Shown piece after piece: positions 15,101-60,619 of a DNA stretch of 64,000 bases (the first letter of the stretch is position 1; every line of letters begins with the position of its first letter). The DNA is taken from assembly GCA_029555025.1 (NCBI GenBank), contig JAKPTZ010000016.1, positions 1 through 64,000 on the forward strand. The letters run 5' to 3'. Source of the DNA: Deltaproteobacteria bacterium. Lineage in GTDB: Bacteria > Myxococcota_A > UBA9042 > DTJE01. Made by a program: the position numbers and the translations under genes. The notes below the pieces were generated by a model. It had not been told where the DNA came from and searched no databases. It saw only the letters and a program-made list of their open reading frames with translations.

Positions 15101-15281
15101 CCCGCGGTCGGATTTTCATCCAGTCGGGCGAATTTTCATCCAGTCGGGCGAATTTTCATTCGCCCATACGGCGGATGGATTTCCGGTTCCACCCTTGTAC
15201 GTGCGGATTACATCCGCCCGCCGCGATCATGCACGCTCCCTTCCCTGTACGGGCGGATTACATCCGCCCGCCGCGGTCATG
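15101..15281. repeat. Hairpin-repeat cluster (two related palindrome types)
   Basis: Between atpC and the deacetylase gene, a 20-bp unit is tandemly repeated (a degenerate copy near 15105, then 15121-15140 and 15141-15160). Its last copy completes the hairpin GGGCGAAT-TTTC-ATTCGCCC at 15146-15165. Two copies of a second palindrome follow 50 bp apart: a one-mismatch copy at 15201-15219 and a perfect GGGCGGAT-TAC-ATCCGCCC at 15251-15269, both preceded by TGTAC. The same two palindromes recur near 23.2-23.5 kb. They resemble REP-like extragenic elements and could also act as transcription brakes. Confidence 0.8.
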
Positions 15282-21360: not shown

Positions 21361-23169
21361 ATGAAACGGAGCCTGATCGTTGCAGTTGCAACAACCTTCC
21401 TGCTTGCGGCCGCCGCCGGATGTGGCGGCGGGTCTGGTGAATACGATGTCATCGCCGACGTCCCGGCGGGCGACATCCCGGCCGATCTGGCGATGCCGGA
21501 CACGACACCGGCCGACGTCCAGGATCCGGACGCCGGCGCCGACGCGACCGAGCCCGACGGAGCGACCGGCGAGCTTCCCGACCAGGAAGTATCAACGAAC
21601 GACGCGACCGACGACGGCTTGGCGACGGACACCGTCGGGGATGCCTTCGTCAAACCCGACCATCTTCCGACCGCACTTCCGGTGGAATTCACCCGGCCGC
21701 AGGTCGGGGATCCGCTTTCGGCTGACGAAGTGACCGAGTTTACCGTTCGGTTCACCGGATTCCTGAAGGACACCGGATACTTCAAGTGGGTGTACGACAC
21801 ATCCCACGGATACGACGCATCAACCGGCAAGCCGGACTGGATGGTCTGGTGGCAGGACGTCGATCTTATCAAGGAAGATGGCAAGCTGACTTTCTATCAT
21901 GGCGACGCGGGCGGCGCCCACAACGTCATGATACCGACCACAGAAATCCTCAGCGCGGCCCAGGCCCTGTACATGCAGACTGGCGACGAATGGGCGGCCC
22001 GCGTGGCCGAGCAGTACTGCAAGGGAATCACCGCTACGATGACCGGCTTCCTGTACGACGAAAACGACGAAAACATCTATGTCATGGCGCGAAATATCAT
22101 CGGCCAGAACCACGAATGGACAGACATCAACGGCCATTCCAAGGCAGTTGATTTCTCACATTGGTACACGACGTATTCCGACTGGAATGCCGAACGTTTT
22201 GAATACGCGTCCAACCCGGTCTTCGGCGACATCTGGGTGACCAACCTGCGCAGCAAGGACGACGTATGCCACATGTTCAGGACGATGGCCCTGCTTCCGT
22301 ACCTGGTCCAGTCCGAGGAGTCCGGCCCGGTCCACGAAGCCTGTTCGGAAACTCTTGAATACATGAAGGGCTTCGCCCGGGACATCGTCGATTTCGATTA
22401 CAACATCAGGACGAAGGATTCGCTTGGCGTCGCATACCTGCCCGGCTGCGAGAATGAAAAGGATCTTTCGTCGTTCGTGTGCTTCGTCGGGATGGACGAC
22501 CAGAACGAATGCACTGCACGGGCCTCGGCCGCGCTTGTCGCGTATGGGGACACCAGGGACGTTGACTGCAAGTCCGGATTCAACTCGGTCTATGATCAGT
22601 TCAGCCAGATAACCCACTGTTTCAATTACCATATCAACTGGAACTTCCACATGGCGGCTGTGGCCAACGCCCTGGTCAACTGGGAACTCGATTATGCAAT
22701 GGGCCTGATGGCCGGACTGGCGAAGCGCATGGACTCCGTCCTGCATCCGACCGATGACGAGCCCGGCCCGAAAAACTGCACCGATTACGAGATCGAGGGT
22801 GCCCAGATGCTGGCCATGACAGCACCAATCGGAATGCCGCTGACCAACGAGGAAGTCCGCCACATTCACAAGATCTGGGATCGCAGCATCGCAAGCTATG
22901 AAAGCTGGCCGCGCTGGGACATGTGGGCCGAGACCGTTCCGGACGGAACTTACAAGTACCACGGCGGCGACAACTCATCGCGCCCCAAGGCGCGCGATTT
23001 CGTCAACGAAGACGGCAAGACAGAACGTCTGGAGCTTGATATCCAGGCCATTCCGATGCTGCTGGAATACTGCAACTCCCCGCTGCTGAACCCGTCCGGC
23101 GCCGTACTGCTCGATTGCGACATCGTCCGCGACCCGGCCCGCTGGGGAGTCATGCCCGACGCCACCTGA
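21361..23169 (+). CDS. Large lipoprotein, possible alpha-helical-barrel enzyme fold
   Basis: 602 residues. A signal sequence ends with lipobox AAAGCGG, followed by an Asp/Thr-rich tether to about residue 105. The body is rich in Trp, His and acidic residues with helical periodicity (HNVMIPTTEILSAAQALYMQTGDEW and similar), reminiscent of (alpha/alpha)6-barrel glycan-active proteins. I find no decisive catalytic motif, so no function is claimed. It has several Cys pairs in the mature part. GGAG precedes the ATG at 21361; an earlier GTG (21334) lacks a ribosome site and would spoil the signal peptide. Confidence 0.65.
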   Translation: MKRSLIVAVATTFLLAAAAGCGGGSGEYDVIADVPAGDIPADLAMPDTTPADVQDPDAGADATEPDGATGELPDQEVSTNDATDDGLATDTVGDAFVKPDHLPTALPVEFTRPQVGDPLSADEVTEFTVRFTGFLKDTGYFKWVYDTSHGYDASTGKPDWMVWWQDVDLIKEDGKLTFYHGDAGGAHNVMIPTTEILSAAQALYMQTGDEWAARVAEQYCKGITATMTGFLYDENDENIYVMARNIIGQNHEWTDINGHSKAVDFSHWYTTYSDWNAERFEYASNPVFGDIWVTNLRSKDDVCHMFRTMALLPYLVQSEESGPVHEACSETLEYMKGFARDIVDFDYNIRTKDSLGVAYLPGCENEKDLSSFVCFVGMDDQNECTARASAALVAYGDTRDVDCKSGFNSVYDQFSQITHCFNYHINWNFHMAAVANALVNWELDYAMGLMAGLAKRMDSVLHPTDDEPGPKNCTDYEIEGAQMLAMTAPIGMPLTNEEVRHIHKIWDRSIASYESWPRWDMWAETVPDGTYKYHGGDNSSRPKARDFVNEDGKTERLELDIQAIPMLLEYCNSPLLNPSGAVLLDCDIVRDPARWGVMPDAT

Positions 23170-23190
23170 TCCACCCGACGACTTCATCGA

Positions 23191-23465
23191 CACGCAGGCC
23201 GGCGAATTATCACGCAGGCGGGCGAATTTTCATTCGCCCGTACGGATCGCGGGGCGGGCAACCGACGGACGCGATGGACAGCATTTTGCTGGACCGCAGC
23301 GGGCGGATGTAATCCGCCCGTACAATGAGGCGGCAGACGGCGCGGATGGGCAACTGGCAGGACCGCAGCGGGCGGATGTAATCCGCCCGTACAATGAGGC
23401 GGCAGACGGCGCGGGTGGGCAACTGGCAGGACCGCAGCGGGCGGATGTAATCCGCCCGTACAAGG
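23191..23465. repeat. Hairpin-repeat cluster with three 69-bp tandem periods
   Basis: The intergenic stretch 23170-23479 is filled by repeats. A half copy (23191-23210) precedes the hairpin GGGCGAAT-TTTC-ATTCGCCC (23220-23239), as at 15.1 kb. The palindrome GGGCGGAT-GTA-ATCCGCCC then occurs at 23301, 23370 and 23439, exactly 69 bp apart, with the whole period (including GTACAATGAGGCGG and GGCAACTGGCAGGACCGC) nearly identical and the last copy truncated. The palindrome is the reverse orientation of the one near 15.2 kb. Confidence 0.85.
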
Positions 23466-23479
23466 AAGGGCGGTGTGCT

Positions 23480-24151
23480 TCAGACCCTGAATCCGGTGGA
23501 TTCGGCGTGACACTCGGACTTCAGCAGGTCGGCGAACATGGCGCACCACTTCTCGAGTTCTTCCGGTTCATAATCGTTCGGCGCATAGATGACCGCCAGC
23601 ACATTCGTCGTCCGTTCATTCACCTTGGTCGCCATCGAGTCCTTCACCGGATTTCCGCACGGCTCCCAGCCGCCACGACCGTCGCGCCGGCACACGACAA
23701 TCAGATCCTGCAGGTCGATTGACTGGCCTGCGCGGTTGAAGACGTATGATTCGCCGGGATATCCCCATCGAAGCAGCAGTTCCGGGCCGGTCAGATCCGC
23801 GTCGAAAACCGAAATCGGAAGCCCGGACTGAAGGCTTATCGCATTGTTGATGTTGACCGGCCCGCAGATGGCCGGAAACGCCCCATCGACGGCCGCCTTC
23901 AGCAGAAATTCGCTGGCCGGCTTGCTGCGCCCCGAAGGATGGTACCGACCATGACGAACCATGTCGCGCACGCGGGCCTTGATGCCCCGTGGCCAGAAAT
24001 CCTCACCCATCCAGGATGCCTTCTGGACATGCGGCGCCAAAAAACCGGGAAGTTCATCGGAAAACACCGGGTCGATGCCCGTGGCCCAGACGAAACCGGC
24101 AATCAACGGCGTCGGGGCAAGATCGCTCGAGATAGTGAGTTCGTATTCCAT
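23480..24151 (-). CDS. B3/B4 tRNA-binding-domain protein (PheT-like)
   Basis: 223 residues similar to the B3/B4 domain of the phenylalanyl-tRNA synthetase beta chain, the fold that edits or recognises substrates. It is a stand-alone protein of the kind annotated as a B3/B4 domain-containing protein. Segments supporting this are GPVNINNAISLQSGLPISVFDAD, GESYVFNRAGQSIDLQDLIVV and a C-terminal helix with NVLAVIYAPNDYEPEEL. The ATG at 24151 fits the domain start; a longer frame to 24289 overlaps the divergent promoter region. Stand-alone B3/B4 proteins are thought to act in aminoacyl-tRNA or amino-acid editing (inference). Confidence 0.75.
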   Translation of the reverse strand: MEYELTISSDLAPTPLIAGFVWATGIDPVFSDELPGFLAPHVQKASWMGEDFWPRGIKARVRDMVRHGRYHPSGRSKPASEFLLKAAVDGAFPAICGPVNINNAISLQSGLPISVFDADLTGPELLLRWGYPGESYVFNRAGQSIDLQDLIVVCRRDGRGGWEPCGNPVKDSMATKVNERTTNVLAVIYAPNDYEPEELEKWCAMFADLLKSECHAESTGFRV

Positions 24152-49929: not shown

Positions 49930-51165
49930 ATGAAGCTGTCATACGCTTCCTGTGCCGCAATCATCCTGGCACTGGCCGCACCGGCGCAGGCACGTGGCCG
50001 GGAGGCCGGGCCGGTGACGTTGACATGGCCGGACATACTTGCCGCGATCGACGGTCACCCGGCCATGGCGCTGGCCAGCGCACGAACCCGGCACGCCAGG
50101 GCGGGGGCAGACGAATCCCCGGTGGGAAACCCCGAAATATCCGGAAGCGTCGGCATGGGTGTCTCGGCCGACGGACGGGAAAGGGCCGTGACATGGGCCA
50201 TCGACGTGGGAATCGCCCTGGACGAAATCCCCACAAGGATTGCGATGCGACGGGCGGCGCTGGCGGACGCGCAGGTGGAACAGGCGAAGGCGGCGCAGAT
50301 ACGAAGCGAAGTCGTCGCGATGCTTCACGAAGCCTTCATCAACGCGTCCATCCGACGAGAAATTGAAGTCGCGTCACGCGAGGCGGCCGCGGCGGCAACG
50401 GAACTGGCGGAAGTCGCGAAATCCCGCCACCAGGCCGGGGAAGGCCGCAAGATCGATGTCATGCGGCTTGAGTACGATGCCGAAATTTCCAAAGGAAGGC
50501 TTTCCGGGGCCGTTCTTGAGCGTCAGGCTGCCTTCGGGCGCCTGAACCGCCTTCTTGGTTCGCGGCTGCCGGAATCCTTTGATATCGACTGCGACTGGGC
50601 GGCCCTGCCGGAAATCGCCGGCCTCGATGATCTCCTGGCTGCCGGTATCGATTCAAACCCTGCGGTTCGCGCGGCAAACGCCGACGCAAGGGCCGGACAG
50701 GCCGTCCTTTCGGCCGAACGGGCAAGGCTGGTTCCCGGCTTCCGAATCGGCGGCTTTTATGAAAGGGAACTGGATTCCGACAAATACGGCGCAAGCCTGT
50801 CGATGACCATTCCCCTGTGGGATCACAATCGAAAGGGAATCAACCAGGCCGCCGCAAGAGTTGCCGCAGCCAGGGCCGAAGCGGATCTTGCAAGGCTGGA
50901 TTATTCCGACAGGCTCGCGTCGGCGCACGCACGGGCATCAATTTCGCGGGAAACCGCCATCAGGTACCGCGATGTCGTCCTTCCGTTGGCCGAGCAGGCC
51001 TCAGCCATGGCAGTTGCCCTTTACAAGGCCGGCGAGAATGGACTGGTCGAAACAATCGACGCGCGTGCCGCCTGCGCCCAGGCCCGGATGCAGATGCTTG
51101 ATGCCTTCCTCGAGGGATGGCGCGCCGCAATCGAATTGCAGGCGATAACGGGGGTTACACCATGA
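49930..51165 (+). CDS. CzcC-like outer-membrane factor of RND metal efflux
   Basis: 411 residues, TolC superfamily: signal peptide (ALAAPAQA), then the duplicated layout with LTWPDILAAIDGHPAMALASAR, a long helical region with EVAKSRHQAGEGRKIDVMRLEYD, GGFYERELDSDKYGASLSMTIPLWDHNRK and a C-terminal YKAGENGLVETIDARAAC. The ATG at 49930 with AAAGGAG is preferred over one five codons upstream. It couples to the adaptor gene by ATGA overlap and would carry metal ions across the outer membrane. Confidence 0.88.
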   Translation: MKLSYASCAAIILALAAPAQARGREAGPVTLTWPDILAAIDGHPAMALASARTRHARAGADESPVGNPEISGSVGMGVSADGRERAVTWAIDVGIALDEIPTRIAMRRAALADAQVEQAKAAQIRSEVVAMLHEAFINASIRREIEVASREAAAAATELAEVAKSRHQAGEGRKIDVMRLEYDAEISKGRLSGAVLERQAAFGRLNRLLGSRLPESFDIDCDWAALPEIAGLDDLLAAGIDSNPAVRAANADARAGQAVLSAERARLVPGFRIGGFYERELDSDKYGASLSMTIPLWDHNRKGINQAAARVAAARAEADLARLDYSDRLASAHARASISRETAIRYRDVVLPLAEQASAMAVALYKAGENGLVETIDARAACAQARMQMLDAFLEGWRAAIELQAITGVTP

Positions 51166-52613
51166 CAAGGATATATCCTGCCGCAATCTTCCTGGCGACC
51201 GCCATTTTCGTGATTTCCGGCTGCGCCCGGGACGGAAGTCCCCAGGGGCGCGGCGTCGCGACGGAAAAGGCCGCCGATCGGCATCGGCATCCCGCGGATG
51301 AGCCAGCGGGCCACGACCATCCGGCCAATGCACATGAACACGACGAACACGGCGCGGCCAGCGACCATCCGGCCAGTGCCGATGAACACGACGAACACGC
51401 GACGGGCCACGACCATCCGGCCCATGCCCATGAACACGACGGGCCCGGCGATCTTGATCGGTCGATTCCGGAGCTTCTTGAAATGGACTGCGAACACGGA
51501 ATTAAGGCGGTCAACTGCGATGAATGCCGGTACGAGTCCGGGTTCGTCAAGGTCGATCCGGATCTGTTTGAAAAGGGCTTGATGAAGACCGTTACGGCAG
51601 AAGAGACCACGATCGCTTCGGGAATGACCCTTTACGGAGAGACGCGCCTTTCCGAACGCAGAATCGCCAGACTCAGCCCCCGGACGTCAGGCCAGGTGGC
51701 ATCCGTCGGGGTTGCACCCGGCGATCATGTCCGCCGCGGCCAGGTACTTGTCGAAATTGAAAGCACCGCATTTGCCGGCGCCGCCGCGGAATGGCTTGCC
51801 GCCGAGGCGACATTCAGGCTTGCAGACATTTCTGCCAGGCGTCACCAGGATCTGAACCGCCAGGGGCTGAACTCGACACGGGAATTCCAGGAGGCCCAGT
51901 CTGCCGTCGAGGCGGCCAGGATTCGCCTTGACGCGGCGGCTCTGGGCCTGAAGGCGGCGGGAATGACCAGGGCGGATGCAAGGGCGCTGTCCTCGGGTGC
52001 CAGGAACCGGGTTGCCATCAGGGCTCCGTTTGACGGTGAAGTGTTCGAAGTCAACGCAACCCGCGGCGCGTTCATCGAGCCGGGACAGGAGACGGTCGTC
52101 ATGGGCGATCGCGGCACCCTTGAAGTAATGGTCGATCTTCGCGAAAGCGACCTGGAAACGGTTTCGACCGCTTTCGGCCCGTCGGGGATACCCGCATCGG
52201 TGACGGTGGCGGCATGGCCTGGACGCAGTTTTTCCGGGATCCTGGACCTGATCGAACCCACGATGTCCCGCCAGACAAGGACGATCCGCGCAAGGGTAAC
52301 CGTCACGAATGACGGGCTCCTGCTTCGTCCGGGCATGTTCGCGACGGTCCGTCCGCAAATCAGGGGTGACGGGGTGCTCGCGATCACCGTGCCGGCGGAA
52401 GCGGTCCTGACGGACGAGGGCCGTCAGTTCGTGTTCGTGCACCACGATGGGCCGCTTTTCATGCGCCGGCCCGTTAAGGCCGGAAAGCCGGAGAACGGGA
52501 TTGTCGAAGTGACGTCCGGACTGGCTCCGGGACAGACCGTGGTGACCACCGGTGCCTTCCTGCTGAAGTCGGATGTCCTGAAGGCAAAGATGGGCGAAGG
52601 ATGCGCGCACTAG
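51162..52613 (+). CDS. CzcB/CusB-like periplasmic adaptor lipoprotein, His-rich N-terminus
   Basis: 483 residues. Signal sequence with lipobox VISGCAR. Residues about 40-95 hold three 16-residue His-rich units (DHPA...EHDEH). A short Cys-rich segment follows with DCEHGIKAVNCDECR, like the metal-binding N-termini of CzcB-type adaptors. Then come the lipoyl, hairpin and barrel domains (QVASVGVAPGDHVRRGQVLVEIES, IRAPFDGEVFEVNATRGAFI). His-rich repeats suggest metal handover to the pump, such as Zn, Ni or Cu; the metal is not determined. Confidence 0.87.
   Translation: MTRIYPAAIFLATAIFVISGCARDGSPQGRGVATEKAADRHRHPADEPAGHDHPANAHEHDEHGAASDHPASADEHDEHATGHDHPAHAHEHDGPGDLDRSIPELLEMDCEHGIKAVNCDECRYESGFVKVDPDLFEKGLMKTVTAEETTIASGMTLYGETRLSERRIARLSPRTSGQVASVGVAPGDHVRRGQVLVEIESTAFAGAAAEWLAAEATFRLADISARRHQDLNRQGLNSTREFQEAQSAVEAARIRLDAAALGLKAAGMTRADARALSSGARNRVAIRAPFDGEVFEVNATRGAFIEPGQETVVMGDRGTLEVMVDLRESDLETVSTAFGPSGIPASVTVAAWPGRSFSGILDLIEPTMSRQTRTIRARVTVTNDGLLLRPGMFATVRPQIRGDGVLAITVPAEAVLTDEGRQFVFVHHDGPLFMRRPVKAGKPENGIVEVTSGLAPGQTVVTTGAFLLKSDVLKAKMGEGCAH
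51312..51444 (+). repeat. 48-bp tandem coding repeat, His-rich
   Basis: Three units begin at Asp codons 51315, 51363 and 51411, exactly 48 bp apart, each encoding DHPA-x-A-(H/D)-EHDE/G. They are nearly identical at the DNA level (GACCATCCGGCC recurring), which indicates recent duplication within the metal-binding region of the adaptor. Confidence 0.85.
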
Positions 52614-60581: not shown

Positions 60582-60619
60582 ATTTCGTTTGCTAGACTAA
60601 TTTCGTTTGCTAGACTAGC
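60582..60619 (+). promoter_or_regulatory. Tandem 18-bp repeat and palindrome, candidate TetR operator
   Basis: ATTTCGTTTGCTAGACTA occurs twice in direct tandem (60582-60599 and 60600-60617). The second copy ends in the perfect palindrome GCTAG-A-CTAGC (60609-60619). It lies 51 bp before the TetR start and about 200 bp before the divergent lipoprotein gene, a typical position for an autoregulatory operator. Confidence 0.5.

Follow-up and report, generated by a model that had tools for sequence, protein, structure and literature searches.

A tandem hairpin array in a Myxococcota genome: a likely REP cluster grown by local duplication

What does a hairpin repeated in tandem between two converging genes represent? 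The question is raised by an intergenic gap of 310 bp (positions 23170-23479) in a 64,000-nucleotide stretch of DNA, here called the window, from a MAG of 3.49 Mb in 158 contigs that is 97.6% complete. In our view the array hairpin very likely belongs to a lineage-specific REP family, with the 69-bp array being a REP cluster that has grown by local tandem duplication.

The array (Table 1) matches its period at 99% of positions and carries the exact palindrome GGGCGGATGTAATCCGCCC at three starts; on the minus strand the hairpin reads GTAC-GGGCGGATTACATCCGCCC. It holds three palindromes but just 2.5 periods. The preliminary description took all three copies to be nearly identical over the whole 69 bp, which is true of full units 1 and 2 (68/69 positions the same, 98.6%) but not of copy 3, which is common to the other units over 35 bp only (23429-23463) and then diverges. 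The recurrence of the palindrome does exceed chance, with five matches in the window at ≤3 mismatches against a shuffle mean of 1.04 and a maximum of 3 (100 shuffles). The 30-nt hairpin, folded as single-stranded DNA, has energies of -11.9 kcal/mol (plus) and -11.8 kcal/mol (minus), with z of -4.9 and -5.3, values that none of 200 shuffles equalled. A second palindrome, GGGCGAATTTTCATTCGCCC, occupies 23220-23239 of the same gap and defines family B, that of the array being family A; a 20-bp tandem of the B arm also falls within the interval first described. The three A elements and the one B element of this cluster are all oriented alike.

Table 1. Positions of the repeats, REP-like elements and reading frames in the window.
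Feature	Coordinates	Strand	Remarks
20-bp tandem of family B arm	15106..15165		Ends in complete B palindrome, 15146-15165
REP-like element A	15201..15219	+	1 mismatch; orientation opposite to array
REP-like element A	15251..15269	+	Exact; orientation opposite to array
Upstream gene, putative lipoprotein, 611 aa	21334..23169	+	3' end toward cluster; ortholog in congener L073
Spurious 121-aa ORF arising from repeat	23184..23549	-	Codon score -40.0
20-bp tandem, 2.1 copies	23191..23232		Partial palindrome B arm plus flank
REP-like element B	23220..23243	-	Core 23220-23239, GTAC head 23240-23243
69-bp tandem array, 2.5 periods	23291..23463	-	TRF
REP-like element A, copy 1	23301..23323	-	Core 23301-23319, GTAC head 23320-23323
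Inner spacer	23329..23360		Second instance 23398-23429
REP-like element A, copy 2	23370..23392	-	
REP-like element A, copy 3	23439..23461	-	Followed by usual A flank CCTTGTAC (minus-strand reading)
Convergent downstream gene, B3/4-domain protein, 269 aa	23480..24289	-	Ortholog in congener

A second REP cluster, made up of a 20-bp B-arm tandem and two A elements, lies at 15106-15269 of the window. The palindrome of the array is inverted relative to it, as had been noted, the loop reading GTA at 23.3 kb and TAC at 15201 and 15251. At the equivalent of 15.1-15.3 kb the congener compared below has an extra 198-aa gene (L149:902-1498) and no hairpin. The window also contains an exact 18-bp tandem duplication in two copies (60582-60617) and a 48-bp tandem of 2.8 copies (51307-51441). 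The latter lies within a 498-aa plus-strand ORF (51117-52613), to which it gives a His/Asp-rich repeat, and the protein resembles an efflux periplasmic adaptor by eye.

The location first given for the array, downstream of a lipoprotein gene, is right in position (the stop ends at 23169), but the lipoprotein identity was read from the N-terminus by eye, and the 611-aa product has no NCBIfam or Pfam match. The warning that the repeat creates false long reading frames is borne out: three ORFs on the minus strand (121, 77 and 70 aa) run across the array with codon scores of -40.0, -23.1 and -1.2, compared with +179 and +40 for the flanking genes on the same codon-usage model. We rejected a coding minisatellite because the array ORFs score negative and because array periods elsewhere include 64, 71 and 79, which are not multiples of 3.

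Searches of the whole MAG at ≤1 mismatch placed palindrome A at 56 positions and palindrome B at 110; the reversed patterns had none. The element survey covered the listed A places (50 of the 56) together with those listed B places that the A loci did not include, a selection that is not random, with element orientation set by the loop. At ≤2 mismatches it yielded 138 elements (56 A and 82 B) in 68 clusters, 38 of which hold at least two elements within 160 bp. The core is identical in 37/56 A and 63/82 B elements. The four-base head of A is GTAC in 43 of the 56, with GTAG absent among the heads listed, and that of B is GTAC in 31, GTAA in 27 and GTAG in 12 of the 82. Elements of family A furthermore have a common 3' flank past the stem, of the GCYGCGGTC type. 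Like neighbours are arranged head-to-tail in 26/27 cases, and unlike A/B neighbours are inverted in 28/43.

The context of 64 clusters was classified with a simple codon model, for which 28 ORFs of the window provided the training set; the clusters of the window, C6, C37 and C34:19 kb were omitted. Of these, 22 are convergent, 20 co-directional and 2 divergent, 13 have a gene on one side, and 7 overlap a predicted ORF; 57/64 are extragenic in that they overlap a predicted ORF by ≤15 bp. By its sequence, the array hairpin belongs to one of two related, lineage-specific REP-like families. This genome-wide membership is not visible from the window alone, hence its absence from the preliminary description.

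Within the phylum, the general hairpin pattern matches 12 of 377 genomes, with 140 places in the source MAG, 172 in a congener (G001, the only additional genome of its genus in the comparison), 23 in G211, 16 in G092 and a single place in each of eight others. G211 and G092 are from other families of the phylum, their hairpin loops differ, and the spread is patchy. The exact A 24-mer had no match in 84,980 genomes plus viral contigs, a search that may omit the source genome. The congener is very probably the MAG Go_SlDig_bin_368, to judge from its locus L073, which matches L084 of JAGOFO010000077.1 (the record of Myxococcota bacterium isolate Go_SlDig_bin_368) without a difference along 3331 bp. 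Its heads are GTAG in 52/55 elements examined, in a count where orientation was picked by GTAG likeness, which favours GTAG, although a chance GTAG is rare.

The orthologous junction in the congener is particularly informative. There the lipoprotein ortholog has its stop at L073:1479 and the gene facing it has its stop at 1498, so that 18 bp stand in place of 310 bp, and these 18 bp hold no hairpin. Such a hairpin-free junction suggests that the cluster is specific to the lineage of the window and is not a conserved terminator, unless the congener, in this comparison of two genomes, has undergone a deletion, which could in principle account for the difference.

That the hairpin element underwent recent tandem duplication, as first proposed, is supported by the comparison of units. 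The full units of the array are 98.6% alike, against 61-77% between the window units and A-to-A units at C145, C37, C6 and C116; units are homogeneous within the array and divergent between loci. On its outer sides the array is bordered by the sequence that normally flanks A elements, and the inner spacer has two places in the genome (≤3 mismatches), both in the array. The composite arrangement of the cluster recurs elsewhere. A B-A-spacer-A composite at C145 matches the window cluster at 83.6% over 183 columns, a longer version at C37 at 76.3% over 215 columns, and A-B alone at C136 at 87.7% over 130 columns. Head-to-tail amplification also recurs at other loci, with periods of 27, 48, 60, 64 and 79 bp. 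The MAG has arrays of 27 bp in 3.9 copies (C34) and of 64 bp in 2.8 copies with units 96.9% alike (C6), and the congener has arrays of 48 bp in 9.8 copies (L066), 60 bp at 100% (L065) and 79 bp at 96.2% (L067). The L066 array (G001:C90, 502-970) is composed of GTAG-headed hairpins and exceeds any array of the window.

The dispersal of the elements, the existence of two families, the recurrence of the composite elsewhere in the genome, the empty site in the congener and the recent local duplication are all supported directly. A plausible chronology would begin with the dispersal of A and B REPs, most likely by a RAYT/TnpA-REP recognising the hairpin in single-stranded form together with its basal tetranucleotide. 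Next, the gap between the lipoprotein gene and the B3/4-domain gene facing it would have received a composite with one B element and two A elements. Finally, the two direct A repeats would have slipped or recombined unequally, adding one spacer-plus-A unit.

A candidate for the dispersing enzyme was found in the congener. There, a minus-strand gene (L089:1450-1977) encodes a 175-aa protein that matches the NF047646 REP-associated tyrosine transposase model (E 4.5e-19), with 68.8 bits, below the cut-off of 80, and gives only 16.6 bits with PF01797. Its best solved structure is the E. coli TnpA-REP 4er8, a weak match (E 0.0074) in which HMH and YxxxNP stretches align; we take these to be the HUH motif and the tyrosine motif. 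Hairpins flank the gene, seven at 961-1461 and three at 2052-2195, one of which (1443-1461) overlaps the 3' end of the gene. Since PF01797 missed this hairpin-flanked gene, it was replaced as a detector by NF047646 and by the protein itself as a query. The one IS200-like gene that PF01797 does find in G001 (L060) was set aside as a partner, there being no family hairpin within 3.5 kb and AATCAACCTGGGTGG-type repeats of its own nearby. These repeats occur on both sides of this RAYT-like gene (G001:C96; gene 278-1249, minus; repeats at 1-60, 1251-1300 and 2624-2717), and the two are perhaps a second transposase-repeat pair.

In the MAG of the window, a PF01797 profile search found no transposase, the best NF047646 match (13.8 bits, E 0.088, with an internal stop) is not credible, and neither of the two RAYT-like proteins of the congener has a credible match. 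A RAYT flanked by these REPs is thus present in the congener and none was detected in the MAG; because the latter is 97.6% complete, this non-detection does not settle absence. It nevertheless counts against a REP cluster grown by duplication, as do the heads of A, which are GTAC and not GTAG, and the direct repetition of like neighbours.

Other origins for the array must be weighed against these data. An array between convergent 3' ends could be a functional RNA, a bidirectional terminator or mRNA-stabilising hairpin for the convergent genes that was multiplied since more copies work better. The transcript fold that had been proposed as a check speaks for it in one respect, RNA of 23180-23479 folding at -140.7 kcal/mol (z -3.78), and the avoidance of divergent regions by the clusters (2 against 22 convergent) fits as well. 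However, no stem is followed by a T-run and 23000-23700 holds no terminator-like site; the congener has the same genes 18 bp apart without a hairpin; the same element sits at dozens of unrelated loci; and no Rfam family falls on the array, a lone sub-threshold match (17.8 bits, gathering 70) lying outside it. An intrinsic terminator is accordingly rejected, the initial suggestion of a terminator or attenuator is not sustained, and we regard a functional RNA of any of these kinds as improbable.

The copy number might instead be an artefact, a single hairpin expanded during the assembly of a short-read MAG. The 158 contigs and the presence of REP clusters near some contig ends (C18, C23, C36) are compatible with this, yet the copies are distinguishable, since a single-base difference separates the full units and the sequence on either side of the array is unlike the inner spacer. 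Arrays with different periods are present elsewhere in the MAG and also in the congener, whose assembly is independent, and assemblers usually collapse such repeats rather than expand them. We consider such an artefact very improbable. Replication slippage on a chance hairpin, with no link to a mobile element, would explain why arrays consist of hairpin plus flank and why the period differs from locus to locus. It does not explain why the palindrome stands at many loci with a common head and a common GCYGCGGTC-type 3' flank; slippage at one locus is therefore insufficient. Refuted by this dispersal as a full account, and the least probable of all, slippage may describe the last step of local copying. 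The evidence taken together favours a REP of a dispersed family that was duplicated in place.

The heads of the two genomes invite a more tentative reading. It is possible, although we hold it doubtful, that within the genus the REP head, the guide to the cleavage site in TnpA-REP, switched from GTAG (congener) to GTAC in A and GTAC or GTAA in B while the stem stayed nearly constant, and that the GTAC version has recently spread as many identical cores. The cognate transposase would then have changed its recognition and would cut GT or GA, not CT or CA, making the switch a natural counterpart of the engineered Marinomonas Mb change in PMC8266576. According to that paper, the S. maltophilia enzyme no longer cleaves when the head is GTAC, the E. 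coli enzyme accepts no alteration of GTAG, and the Marinomonas Mb enzyme is redirected by GTAC to sites of GA and GT. Of 30 distinct 3' flanks of GTAC-headed A elements, 13 have GA or GT at +6 and 12 have it at +7; of 25 distinct flanks of congener GTAG elements (20-nt class), 9 have it at +6 and 6 at +7, and 9 have CA at +8. GA and GT are thus frequent beside GTAG heads as well, and the flanks show no clean switch. PMC6006769 records classes that are without the GT[AG]G head. Natural GTAC-headed REPs do not appear in the text of PMC3733652 or PMC6006769 ('GTAC' occurs 0 times), and the literature search showed only the engineered variants of PMC8266576; natural ones may nonetheless have been published. 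If the switch is real, this pair of sister species would allow the joint change of a domesticated transposase and its hairpin specificity to be tested.

The hairpin tandem that seemed odd at first is a single locus within a larger REP population, in a lineage of Myxococcota that has received little study, and a congener provides a clean empty site for it. It can be set beside known systems. It is no CRISPR array, as the spacers are near-identical and the repeat is dispersed. PMC3733652 (Di Nocera and colleagues) describes GTAG-tagged REPs, clusters tandemly reiterated with flanking DNA, and REPtrons and their occasional loss. Like that superfamily, the elements described here have a short perfect stem, a small loop, a four-base head at the foot and tens to hundreds of copies, and they are intergenic, between co-directional and convergent genes, as our context counts agree. 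Unlike it, they bear heads of GTAC in most A and of GTAC, GTAA or GTAG in B. The window species thus lies outside the superfamily in the strict sense, which has GTAG or GTGG at the stem foot. Given these heads we class the array as REP only in the wider meaning of the term, a high-copy, mainly extragenic short palindrome, and as sister to the GTAG-tagged family.

Mosaics and arrays of REPs offer further parallels. PMC2817692 ties REPs to RAYTs and presents the Escherichia coli BIME-2 as a REP mosaic with conserved inter-REP sequence. The present cluster likewise combines several REPs in a mosaic with conserved sequence between them; however, BIME-2 units alternate in REP orientation and the elements of array A all share one. 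As in a REPtron, with its RAYT (TnpA-REP; NF047646), the RAYT-type gene of the congener has hairpins on both sides, but it scores below the NF047646 cut-off and the MAG of the window has no detected counterpart. In Pseudomonas fluorescens SBW25, PMC3116915 reports ordered tandem REP/REPIN arrays of near-identical units with flanks, from which a second, local mechanism was inferred. Our array resembles these in order, in the near-identity of its units and in the inclusion of flanking sequence. The mobile unit in SBW25 is an inverted pair, the REPIN, and inverted pairs are usual in published REP families, whereas like neighbours here are direct repeats and form no dispersed inverted unit. Since dispersed hairpins and tandem REP arrays are already in print (PMC3116915, PMC3733652), the tandem hairpin array is a new example of a phenomenon known in other bacteria, and the difference in heads between congeners could be the one feature that goes beyond it.
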